Origin: Thelonectria olida
Taxonomy: Eukaryota; Ascomycota; Sordariomycetes; Hypocreales; Nectriaceae
Direction of reading: 5' to 3'
NCBI GenBank assembly: GCA_020736575.1
Contig: JAGPYM010000012.1
Span: 1,087,535-1,151,534, forward strand
Length of the DNA stretch: 64,000 bases
The translations under genes and the position numbers were made by a program. Below the pieces are notes generated by a model. It did not search any database, was not told the origin of the DNA, and saw only the letters and a program-made list of their open reading frames with translations. This document shows, piece by piece, positions 13,001 to 32,797 of the stretch; position 1 is the stretch's first letter, and the number at the start of each line of letters is the position of its first letter.

Positions 13001-14437
<1,437 letters not shown>

Positions 14438-15160: not shown

Positions 15161-17701
15161 ATGCGGCTAGCAGCACGCTTTCGGAAGACTGCACAGAGAG
15201 ACCATATCTCAAGTCCCGACTCGACCAGCCCTGCGGATTCCGGCTATGGCCCGGTTACGAACTCACCCGATCCATTCTCAGCCCCGAAGCGCCGACGAGG
15301 CACCTTGTTTGATGGTTCAGGATCCTGCGATGGCTTAGAAACATTGTCCGAGGAAACAAAATATGAGAAGCCACGCTCTAAGATACGAGAACCTAACGGA
15401 TCTGCCACAGCTAGAGGCGGACTTCTTGTGGAATAGGAGACAAGTACTGCACTTGGTTCTCCTCGCAGATCCTCACCCAGCAGGCCGGCACTCGCCCCTA
15501 AACGAATTGACTTCAACAGACGATTGCTAGATCGATACATTCCAAGGCGAGACCCCCAGTCACCGCCAGCTGAGAGATACCGAACCACAAAACCACCGCA
15601 AGAGCTTTCGCCGCTGGAGAAGATTGCCAGAAACACCAAAGCATCCATGGACCCATTCTCTTCTCGGAACACGTCGACTTCTGACTGGAGTTCGTTATCC
15701 CAAGCGGATGACAGAGCTATCAACCGAGGTCTGTCTCTTCGCCATTTTCTCGGTGCCCAAGCTCACATATCATGCAGTTGGTGCCGTCTTAGGACCTTTG
15801 TCAACGAATCACGGGAGCCTAAGACAAGTGAGCCAAGGCGCAGTCTGGGCTGTAGGAGGGTTGACCTCAAGTACGACAACCGATACGACCGCTGACACGA
15901 CCACCCACGAAGCTCTCACACGCTTGGTTCGACGTCGTGTTAACACGCGTGCCTTTTCGGCTTCATTCCACAAGCCTAAGTTGAACGCGCGAGATGATTT
16001 GATCAAGCATGAAGGTCGGATTGCCATGGCCCTGGACATTGATCGAGTTCGCAAGGTATTCGACTTCGATCACAGCAACCAGATTCCACAATGCATCCGA
16101 GGCAGCAGAGACGACAGATCTACAGACAGGACCAGGACAATGTGGGACGGGTGCGGGTGGATGAATGGAGAAGAAGCCTTTAGTAAGTAGAGAAAGTATT
16201 ACATCAACACCGGTAAGGGGCTGACAATATCAAGGTACTCTAGACCAAACAACCCTGAATTCGCCGTTCAGGTAAAGTGCCCCCCTTTTGACAACATGAA
16301 AACAAGTTCGTTTGTTAACGATGTAGGGTCCTCAATGCACCACACCTAAAGGATGATTTCTATTGCTCCCCTTTGGCATACACGATTACGTCTCAGACGC
16401 TTGCTGTATGCCTCGGAAATTTTCTGTATGCCTGGTCCGAAGAGGTCGGCGTTCAGATGATGCATGGTGCTCATTCAGCAGCCTGGCTCACTTCTATTGC
16501 GTTTTCATCGACCCAAGGTGCCAAAGCTATCCTCGCTATTGGTCAATCTGACGGCTGTCTGGTCCTCAGGTCCGTATATGATGGACTACCTCGCTTTGAA
16601 GTTCAAAATCGTTTCCCAATTGCCTGTGTAAGCTGGCGACCGAGGTGTACGCTTCGCCCGTCGAAGAACCCATTCAACCCGGGGGTTCTTGTGCAGACCG
16701 AGGATTTGATCGTCGGCGATGAGGTGGGAATACTGTACTATTACGCGGTAGAGTGGCCGATGGCTTGGGAAGTCTCAAGAGATACCTGGCCCGGATCTAT
16801 ATCACTCCTGACCAAGATCTCGGTTCATAGCCAGCAGATATGCGGCCTCGCCTGGGCGCCTGATGGAGCACTCTTCGCTTCTGGTGGCAATGATAACCTT
16901 TGCCATCTCTTCGAAGTCGATTACATCTTTGATCAGGACCAGGCTGGTCCACGTCGTAACGAGATCCCCTCTCGAAACACGCGAATAAGGACAACGCCTC
17001 TTAGTCTTGATCCAGACTTTGAAGTAGCAGACGAAGCTCGGGTTTCTAGCCATGACCCCATGTCATCTTTCCTCACCCCAGCCACAACGTCCAATAACCC
17101 AGAGGTTGAAACATATCGAACCTCGCTTGACACGCTCCGCCATCTTGGGGCTGGGGTAGTGCGACATCGCTGGGTCCACGGTGCCGCTGTCAAAGCCATT
17201 GCATTTTGTCCATGGAGACATGGCCTGCTTGCAACGGGGGGCGGATCCAACGACAAGTGCATCCATTTCTTTCATACTTCTTCGGGTGCGGCTCTCGCTA
17301 CCATACATGTTTCGGCTCAGGTCACATCGCTCATCTGGTCAACTACCCGACGAGAAATCCTCGCAACATTTGGCTATCCGCATCCGGAGCATCCATACCG
17401 CATCGCCGTATTCAGCTGGCCCGATTGCAAACAGGTAGCAGCGATCCCCTGGCAAGGTGAACCAAGGGCGCTCTATGCCATCTCGTATGCTGAGGGACCC
17501 CTGTACCCTCAACCTCGGAGGAAGGGCCGGGCGGCGCAGGAAGGTTGCATTGTCGTCGCATCCAGTGATAGAAGCGTCAAGTTCTACGAGGTTTGGGGGA
17601 ACAAAAAAGGGGGAAGCGCGAGTAGACAAGAGGTATTGAGGGCTAGTGAGAGTTTTGACGGCCCGAACGGGATGAACAAGGAGGCAGATGTCATTCGTTG
17701 A
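15161..17701 (+). CDS. ama1: Meiosis-specific APC/C activator, AMA1-like (Fizzy family), with in-frame UAG
   Basis: Four exons, 15161-15728, 15778-16182, 16235-16271 and 16327-17701, make 795 codons including stop, with one internal TAG at codon 92 (15434-15436). Frame is the same on both sides, so it is not an indel. Downstream is a C-box, DRYIPRR (about 125-131), which docks on the APC/C. The spliced SPFRVLNAPHLKDDFYC leads into a WD40 propeller (about 340-775), and the protein ends in Ile-Arg, the IR tail used by Cdc20, Cdh1 and Ama1. The long linker between C-box and propeller favours Ama1 over Cdc20 or Cdh1. Introns have CTGAC-like branches. If the codon is edited to UGG or read through, a 794-residue protein results; otherwise only a 91-residue peptide lacking every functional motif. 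A poor-donor 3n-length intron over the TAG cannot be excluded. Confidence 0.88.
15425..15444 (+). promoter_or_regulatory. Hairpin presenting the in-frame UAG in its loop
   Basis: CTTGT at 15425-15429 pairs perfectly with ACAAG at 15440-15444, leaving a 10-nt loop (15430-15439) that contains the stop codon of AMA1 codon 92. The middle A is at 15435, preceded by U and followed by G. Fungal A-to-I editing is known to favour U before the A and sites in hairpin loops. Editing here is inferred. Confidence 0.5.
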
Positions 17702-29400: not shown

Positions 29401-31057
29401 ATGCAGCAGCAATACCGCGCGTACGCGCCTCAGGTGTCGCAGCGATCGCCTGCCAATCAGCGCAGAGGTGGAATTGGTACGCGGCTCACTTACGCATCGG
29501 TTCTTTTGCTAACTTGACTGTCAATCAAGGGCCCATGATGTCTTCCGGTCCCCACCCTTCCGTGCCTCTTACTCAGGCTCAGATCGCCCAGCAACAACAA
29601 GCCCAGGCCCATGCCAGCGAACTCGCCAAGAGACGGAGCCGCAAGCCTACCGACAAGAACATGCCCGAGGGTGTTGAGGACAACATTGTCGATGCCGGGG
29701 GCGTGCAGCGTTATAAGGACCTCAGGGATGTTGAACGCAGGCTCGATGCCACTATGACGCGCAAGCGCCTCGATATTGTCGAGAGTGCGAGCCGCAGCAC
29801 TAAGGTCGGTTGATCCCAGACTTTTCTAACGGCAGCCGACTGACTTCGCCTGTCCTCAAATAGCGATATAAGACGCTTCGAGTTTGGATTAGCAACACAG
29901 TTGAGGATCAGATATGGCAGAGTAATGGTCTCAATGTCGATGCATTTGACTTTACCCCCAGCATGGATGCTTCCTATCGTGTGAAGATCGAGGGCCGCCT
30001 ACTCGATGACGAGGATGATAAGGATCAGTCGACATCTCCCAAGGGTGACCAATTGGAACAGGACAGCGCCGACCCTTCGCGTCAGAAAGCCAAGACGCAA
30101 CCTCAACGACATCGGTTCTCTCACTTCTTCAAAGCCTTGAGTGTCGACTTCGATCGCTCGCGATTTAGGAATGGCGCCGAGCAGACCGTGGAATGGAAGA
30201 AGCCAGATCCGACTGCCAGGAACCAGCCCAACGCCAGCTTGCCCGCCGCGGCTGATTTCGACGAGCTCACGTTCAAGCGGAACGGAGACGAAGACATGAA
30301 CATCACCATCAACCTCTTCCAACAGGAATCCCCCGAGGTGTACCTGTTGAGCCCAGAGCTTGCCGAGGTGGTCGACATGAGCAAGGCGACACAGCAAGAA
30401 GCCGTCATGGGCTTATGGGAGTATATCAAAGTCACGGGATTACAGGAAGATGAGGAGAAGCGAAACTTTCGCTGTGACGACCTCATGAAGAAGGTGTGTT
30501 TGCTTGGTAGGCTTACAAGACCTTACTGGCTAACACATGATTAGGTTGTAAAACGCGGAGACGTGGGATACATCCCCATGCTTAACGAATACGTCACCCA
30601 GCATCTTCGCCCTCTTGCGCCCATCGCCCTTCCTTACACGATCCGAGTTGACCAAGAGTTCCACAAAGACCCCCAGCCCACCATTTACGATATCCAGGTT
30701 TCCGTGGAAGACTCTTTCCGCGACTCCTTGCTGCCTCTAATTAACAATCCGCAGTATGCGGCAATGCTTAAGGATGTGACGGCTCTGGATGAACAACTGG
30801 CGCGACTTGTACAGGCCATATCCGCTTCCAAGGCCAAACACACCTTCTTCACTTCGCTCAGCGAGGATCCCGCCAACTTTATCAAGAACTGGCTGAGTTC
30901 TCAAAAGAGAGATCTCGAAGTCATCATGGGCGAAGCATCCAGAGGAGGTGGCGAGCATGCGTCTGGTGATGAATGGCGTAGGGGTGGCAAGGATAGTGTC
31001 TGGGCCACCCAGAATGCTCGGGAGAGCGTTAATGTTTTGCTCTCCAAGCAACGCTAA
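29401..31057 (+). CDS. ssr3: SWI/SNF complex subunit Snf12/Ssr3 (BAF60, SWIB domain)
   Basis: Four exons, 29401-29476, 29530-29804, 29864-30493 and 30545-31057, give 497 residues. All junctions are in frame: SRSTK joins RYKTLRVWISNT, and DLMKK joins VVKRGD. The N-terminus is Gln-rich and disordered. A conserved BAF60 block (about 75-180) ends in the wing WISNTVEDQIW; the SWIB/MDM2-like domain lies around residues 245-345, with GLWEYIKVTGLQ and later HLRPLAPIALPYTIRVD. A C-terminal coiled segment follows. Role: bridges chromatin remodeller and transcription factors in the nucleus. It converges on hymA with 406 bp between stop codons. Confidence 0.94.
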
Positions 31058-31463: not shown

Positions 31464-32797
31464 CTACCGTTGAGGCGGTACTGGGACTGCTGGCATGTTG
31501 CGAATTTGCTTAATCAAAAACTCTCTCTCATCAATGAACTGCTCGTCATCGGTTCGATCTTCCAGAAAGTGAGAGAGAAAAGTGAGGAGTTTTTCGCGGT
31601 TCATCAGGAGAATCTTCTGAACAGCAATGGACTTGTGGGGATTGGCAACGAAAACCTTGAAGACATGGAAGCCTTCGTACTGGACCATTTTCCTATCATC
31701 GCGCAGTAGATTCATGCAAATTTTCAGGTGCTCGCCGCGATCAACATAGGCCGTCATAACGCTATAGTTTGACCGATCCAGCAGGATTTCACCAAGCAGC
31801 TTGATAGACTGGCGTTTGGTAACATAGCTGTTAGACTGAACCAATATGTTGTTGTACTTGTCGAAGAAAAGATCGAAATTGGCAGACAAGTATCGTGGTA
31901 CTAGTTCCTTGTGTCGGGTCAAGAGTTCCTAGAGTCGCAAATTAGAACACAGTGGAGTTGTGGCGGTATCAAGCTTTGGGTTGCATCTTACTCGGAAGGT
32001 GGTGAATGCATCGGCAGCGACCTCGAATGAGCTCTTGTCAACCCAGTCGAAGAACCTCCAGAAGACTCCCCTGCCACTTTGAGGCCGGTCGCGATCGATG
32101 GCATTGAGCCCCTTGGAACTTGATCCGGGCTCGTCTCCGTCATCGTAGAGAATGATGGCAGCTGCAGCTTCGTTCTTCAATAGTTCGCGGAGAACGGAAC
32201 CGGCGGGAGTGGCGCTCTCTTTGTGATCATATCCTCGGCATAGTTCGACCAGGACTTGTGGTCGATTGCAGACAACGTATGACAGGGCGATAGGGTCGCT
32301 TTTGGGAGCAGCGGTCGCGGGACGGAAGCGGAAAACGTAGGAGAAAATGACTTGTGTGTCCTTGCGGGACTCGAAGGGCAGGCGGTAGAGGTTAACAGCG
32401 AGGAGATGAAGCAGGTCTTCGTCGATCAAGCCAGTGACAAGCTGGTAGATTTGCTCAGGGGAACTGTCGGCTTCTTGATTCAGGGGTTACTCAATTTGTC
32501 CATGGAAACTAGGGGGTGACTCTGGGCATCTTGATGGAGGGGTAGGTTGGCTGCCGAGGTGGGAGGGACGGGGAGCATACCGTGTGTTCCTTGGAGGATG
32601 AGTTTCATTTGGCTCAAGACACGAGCAAGTTCCTCAGCCTAGACAGATCAGTCAGTCTCGGGGGCTGAGTCATGGTGTAGCAGGGCAACGACCTTAGAAG
32701 GTCCATTGGGCCCTTCGAGCTTCGAGATGTGGTCGCGGGCTTGTTTGGGTAAGTCGGTGACGGGTCTCGTCCGCGTTCTTCCAAATAGAAAAGACAT
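31464..32797 (-). CDS. hymA: Mo25 family protein, conidiophore development protein HymA
   Basis: Four exons on the minus strand, 32693-32797, 32581-32638, 31992-32473 and 31464-31928, give 369 residues, close to the usual Mo25 length. It begins MSFLFGRTRTRPVTDL and continues with armadillo-like helices; VLVELCRGYDHKE and VFWRFFDWVDKSSFEVAADAFTTF, then RHKELVPRYLSANFDLFF, are diagnostic of Mo25. The 107-nt third intron from the 3' end (32474-32580) is longer than its neighbours. Mo25 is a scaffold that activates germinal-centre/STE20-like kinases in the morphogenesis (MOR/RAM) network; in Aspergillus the hymA mutant has defective conidiophores. It is divergent from the isoleucyl-tRNA synthetase. 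Confidence 0.95.

Follow-up and report, generated by a model that had tools for sequence, protein, structure and literature searches.

How a full-length protein can be made from a gene that is interrupted by an in-frame stop codon is the question raised by AMA1 of Thelonectria olida, a member of the Nectriaceae (Hypocreales). The gene lies in the window analyzed here, which is a stretch of 64,000 nucleotides, and its first exon contains a TAG at a position that would terminate translation ahead of all recognizable functional parts of the protein. Several answers may be considered, namely, that the stop is corrected in the mRNA, that it is spliced out, that it is bypassed during translation, or that it is simply a defect. 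The features on which the argument depends are as follows (window coordinates).

15161..15728, + strand: AMA1 exon 1, starting with the ATG at 15161-15163 and containing the in-frame TAG, with homology on either side of the TAG
15425..15444, + strand: possible 5-bp stem with a 10-nt loop (CTTGT...ACAAG), not the predicted fold in context
15434..15436, + strand: in-frame TAG, codon 92, with A15435 as the proposed A-to-I site
15530..15550, + strand: C-box DRYIPRR, codons 124-130
15647..15649, + strand: the first ATG that follows the TAG in frame, located past the C-box
15729..15777, + strand: AMA1 intron 1 (GTCTGT...CAG)
15778..16182, + strand: AMA1 exon 2
16183..16234, + strand: AMA1 intron 2
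16235..16271, + strand: AMA1 exon 3
16272..16326, + strand: AMA1 intron 3
16327..17701, + strand: AMA1 exon 4, with most of the WD40 propeller (CDC20/Fizzy type), the Ile-Arg end, and the TGA at 17699-17701
16484..16486, + strand: TGG encoding W390 of T. olida AMA1, the presumed Fusarium stop column

Judged from its sequence, the gene is an AMA1 ortholog that encodes an AMA1-type APC/C activator with a C-box, a propeller, and a terminal IR. Once the three introns are removed, the four exons provide 794 codons, and the only internal stop is the TAG at codon 92. An earlier reading made from the sequence only had described this TAG as codon 92 of an otherwise continuous frame, with the C-box, the WD40 propeller, and the IR tail all downstream; the ATG and the TAG are indeed in one frame, and the three elements were found where expected, at 15530-15550 and onward to the TGA. 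The same reading had named the gene as the meiotic APC/C activator AMA1, and this name is supported by the C-box, the propeller, the IR, and the homologs, several of which carry the name meiosis-specific APC/C activator AMA1. Matches in PDB include Slp1, CDC20, and CDH1, and the annotated T. olida protein matches PF24807 with an E-value of 7e-53 (180.2 bits, under the 200-bit cut-off). There is one AMA1 locus in the genome; two further places have weaker similarity (41-44% identity), and we infer that these are CDC20/CDH1-like. Our choice of 15729-15777 for intron 1 yields the peptide NRVGAVLGPL, as do models from Dactylonectria and Ilyonectria. In T. olida, the annotated model, which is marked partial, has another splice at intron 1 and begins at residue 121, after the TAG; both look like annotation errors. 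Upstream of AMA1, a chitinase-like reading frame (name assigned by eye) is present at 13445-14437. One Fusarium langsethiae model joins a GH18 domain (PF00704) to AMA1, so the chitinase-AMA1 gene order may be conserved.

The coding potential expected on both sides of the TAG was confirmed by same-frame homology to AMA1 proteins on each flank. Residues 1-91 match AMA1 N-termini (best E-value 6e-13, Neonectria ditissima, aligned residues 1-74), and the piece with residues 93-144 matches the C-box region (best E-value 6e-14, aligned residues 103-144), with these E-values computed against just 119 other AMA1 matches. Residues 93-102 have no recognizable homology among those 119 matches. It is this homology that matters; the open frame alone is weak evidence because 17 stops in the window, codon 92 included, are flanked by at least 90 open in-frame codons on each side when both strands are considered (eight TAG, eight TGA, and one TAA). 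Other window TAGs that have 90 or more open codons both before and after them occur at 30542, 45523, and 51513 on the + strand and at 31929 on the - strand. These may represent introns, gene ends, antisense frames, or more editable stops. Codon-usage log-odds, trained on 16 ORFs of the window, ranked the AMA1 frame top upstream of the TAG; between the TAG and the C-box this frame was not top, and training on 16 ORFs is too weak to decide there. When AMA1 residues 1-170 alone were used for a search, the annotated T. olida protein was the sole match. A Trp at codon 92 is not conserved among AMA1 models and would lie in a variable linker; the first alignment near this residue covered 34 of the 120 matches, namely, those in which a regular expression found a C-box preceded by no fewer than 60 residues.

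One alternative is that a small intron or an alternative first exon removes the stop, such that editing is not needed. Ten GT-AG introns (38-200 nt) that keep the frame could span the TAG, and the annotated T. olida model begins just 5' of the C-box, beside an acceptor-like CAG. However, the ten introns share only three donors (15254, 15307, and 15346), none of which is consensus, and no GTRNG donor exists between the ATG and the TAG. Still, the best of these donors (GTTTGA) scores 3 on a simple scale, which is a tie with the donor of the real intron 3. Similarly, no CTRAY branch site is in range for any of the ten, although the same scan found this site to be missing from two of the three real introns as well. 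Every bypass intron would delete residues that align with orthologs (residues 1-74 align with Neonectria). A case in which a UAG occurs together with alternative splicing has been described in FgBUD14 (PMC11156358). On balance, removal of the stop by splicing appears unlikely.

It may also be proposed that a functional Ama1 is obtained from unedited mRNA, either by low-level readthrough of the UAG or by initiation at a near-cognate codon downstream of the TAG but upstream of the C-box. Near-cognate codons are present in this interval, and the C-box and the propeller are entirely downstream of it. However, UAG-GAG is not a readthrough context known to us, and the first ATG past the stop, at 15647, sits beyond the C-box. 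The C-box is the APC/C-binding motif, so re-initiation at this ATG would produce a protein without it. Moreover, neither readthrough nor a near-cognate start would explain the parallel with PUK1 that is described below, and we consider this possibility very remote.

Another explanation is that this strain recently acquired a loss-of-function allele, or that the TAG stems from an error in the assembly; in either case the stop would never be corrected. Our observation is based on a single strain and a single assembly, the position of codon 92 is not conserved, and loss of sexual genes would be conceivable in a cultured strain. Against this, there is a single stop in 794 codons, the three introns are spliceable, and the C-box, the propeller, and the IR are intact. 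In addition, a UAG occupies the published editing position of PUK1 in this genome, so genes interrupted by a UAG should be expected in it. A defective allele or assembly error is therefore quite improbable in our assessment. The PUK1 locus is as follows.

G000:C78:2435500-2440500, - strand: T. olida PUK1 ortholog (L039, also L029), with in-frame TAGs at codons 96 and 600

In kinase subdomain IX, the T. olida PUK1 ortholog reads RCDW-stop-SIGIILFE, with TGG TAG at codons 599-600 (CDS nucleotide 1798 in the gene model of this analysis). The PUK1 stops reported for F. graminearum are located at nucleotides 1830-1835 in the same subdomain and read UAG UAG, and the corresponding site is reported as UAG UGG in N. 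crassa and UGG UAG in F. verticillioides (PMC4817773). The annotated T. olida PUK1 protein (P0121) skips both TAGs, including the subdomain IX stretch; in gene models, spurious introns that avoid an editable UAG are described as a signature of such sites (PMC4817773). The TAG at codon 96 could be removed by candidate introns whose donors are fair (GTATGG and GTGTGC) and thus is not firm support. PUK1 was picked out by reading 10 of 20 kinase stretches, and in seven of these ten the TAG was among the five residues that open the match, as would be seen at the end of an intron. Because TAGs cluster at match starts in this way, counts of TAGs inside Pfam matches were not used as evidence. Among the best 120 of 2057 PUK1-like matches, 76 models have no DWW motif, with the absence found in 66 of 68 Hypocreales and 10 of 30 others versus 0 of 22 Leotiomycetes, a class in which such editing was reported as not found (PMC11087585). 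The group counts given here and below are based on the best 120 matches for each gene (of 133 for AMA1 and of 2057 for PUK1), with groups assigned from source names and all 120 kept, and the Fisher tests on these model counts leave phylogeny and shared annotation pipelines uncontrolled.

Two further observations concern the possible editing capacity of this genome. A cytosine methylase gene (L037), which we take to be RID-like based on its methylase domain, has an in-frame TAG at 1243, flanked by 221 and 449 open codons. This TAG could be the end of a 168-nt intron (GTATGT...TAG), so this stop also is not firm support. FgRID is listed as a gene with premature stop correction (PSC) in F. graminearum (PMC11156358). 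For the editing machinery, three DUF726 genes are present in the genome. One of these (L010, located on G000:C144) is diverged and has MV at the position where the paralog L008 has HN (aligned by eye), and the pair MV500-501 is reported to be indispensable for Ame1, with KN as the Leotiomycete form (PMC11087585). L010 is a candidate for Ame1.

The predicted RNA structure provides a different picture. The stop had been placed in the loop of a perfect 5-bp hairpin by the sequence-only reading, and this claim did not hold. The stem CTTGT...ACAAG (15425-15444) can pair, with -2.3 kcal/mol in isolation, yet in context its pair probability is at most 0.08: flanks of 20-25 nt give values of 0.07-0.08, and with longer flanks (30-150 nt) the probability drops to around 0.001 or below. 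Perfect 5-bp stems of this sort surround 29 of the 1125 TAGs in the window. A15435 is predicted to be mostly paired: the minimum-energy fold places it in a stem, and its unpaired probability is 0.15-0.24 (0.15 at 30-nt flanks), whereas an unpaired probability of 0.97-1.00 is predicted for both PUK1 TAGs and for that of the RID-like gene. Because of this difference, the predicted structure counts somewhat against the AMA1 site as an editing target. In F. graminearum, over 62% of editing sites are reported to reside in hairpin loops, and primary sequence is reported to outweigh structure (PMC9600606). With regard to primary sequence, the AMA1 TAG has the preferred base at five of the six published positions (-2 to +4), with a failure at -2; the U at -1 of the edited A, which had been pointed out before, is one of the five. 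Such motif scores are common, as 210 of the 1125 window TAGs score at least 5.

Considering all of these points, we favor, with a probability of roughly 0.7, that the AMA1 TAG is a site of sexual-stage A-to-I PSC, by which UAG would become UGG. In hyphae, the AMA1 mRNA would be read up to the UAG and give a 91-residue piece that has neither C-box nor propeller. In developing perithecia, a Tad2-Tad3-Ame1 deaminase would turn A15435 into inosine, and the edited UAG would be read as UGG (Trp), such that full-length Ama1 would be available for ascospore formation. We infer the editing of A15435, its stage specificity, and the role of the protein. Since the position of W92 is not conserved, editing here would act as an on/off switch and not as fine recoding. 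This idea had been put forward by the sequence-only reading; its hairpin argument fails, but it is strengthened by the published UAG-to-UGG editing of F. graminearum AMA1 and by the UAG at the PUK1 editing position in this genome. As that reading also suggested, AMA1 of Fusarium has been studied for A-to-I editing (PMC4817773; PMC11156358). FgAMA1 (FGRRES_10728) is reported as a PSC gene with a UAG-to-UGG change (PMC4817773), and this editing is said to be necessary for the full-length protein (PMC9499528; PMC11156358). The gene is described as required for ascosporogenesis (PMC11156358 and PMC12582100, both citing Hao et al., 2019), with a deletion mutant that has normal meiosis and abnormal ascospores (PMC12582100, citing Hao et al., 2019). 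A search of an open-licence library found no reports of RNA editing in Thelonectria; if the reading that we favor is true, editing-dependent genes would extend to this genus.

Is the T. olida stop at the same site as the Fusarium stop? Among the best 120 of 133 AMA1 matches, 15 of 23 Fusarium models but 1 of 97 others have a gap in the column of W390 (HGA..xWLTS); the remaining non-Fusarium models have W (80), H (8), or Y (8). In an alignment of 31 Nectriaceae models, residues 384-390 are the stretch that is absent from all 15 gapped Fusarium models. Because a column skipped by gene models is the published signature of an editable UAG, we place the Fusarium AMA1 stop at the W390 equivalent, a placement that presumably holds and that is based on gene models and not on Fusarium DNA. 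A gap at residues 29-45 in the F. graminearum model was considered as the Fusarium stop and rejected, given that residues 384-390, gone from all 15 models, are the better candidate; a second stop in F. graminearum AMA1 at residues 29-45 is possible. T. olida has TGG at W390, and the stop at codon 92 would thus be a separate acquisition.

These patterns may suggest that editing control of AMA1 evolved independently at least twice in Nectriaceae, once at a propeller Trp in a Fusarium clade and once in Thelonectria, and perhaps in allied genera, at an unconserved codon upstream of the C-box, a scenario to which we give even odds. Models that begin after residue 92 account for five of eight from Thelonectria and allied genera (T. 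olida included), 2 of 35 from Leotiomycetes, 2 of 27 from other Sordariomycetes, and 4 of 23 from Fusarium, and also for 4 of 8 from Trichoderma and 11 of 15 from unnamed sources (best 120 of 133 matches). There is a faint hint that relatives may have the codon-92 stop in common with T. olida. If independent origins are true, selection would favor an editable stop that silences Ama1 outside sex, wherever in the gene it is located. If editing-dependent stops recur at unrelated codons of one meiotic regulator, it would be stage restriction that is selected and not a particular amino acid, which has a bearing on the question of whether A-to-I editing in fungi is an adaptation or a mere repair of tolerated mutations.

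When compared with known systems, T. olida AMA1 resembles the meiosis-specific APC/C activator AMA1 of S. cerevisiae in having a C-box, a WD40 propeller, and an IR tail, and we know of no comparable editing in yeast. With the PSC genes of F. graminearum, which comprise PUK1 and about 70 others (including AMD1, FgRID, and FgBUD14), it shares a UAG that interrupts a sexual-development gene and an annotation that dodges the stop. T. olida PUK1 has the UGG-UAG form, which is the same as that of F. verticillioides PUK1. The Trp restored in PUK1 is a conserved kinase residue, whereas the Trp at codon 92 of T. olida AMA1 would lie in a variable linker. A further close counterpart is FgAMA1, an orthologous sexual-stage regulator with a UAG, and F. 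graminearum models are among the AMA1 matches. The two genes differ in the site of the stop, which in FgAMA1 is presumably at the propeller Trp equivalent to W390 (as judged from models), whereas the T. olida gene reads TGG at that column and carries its TAG at codon 92.
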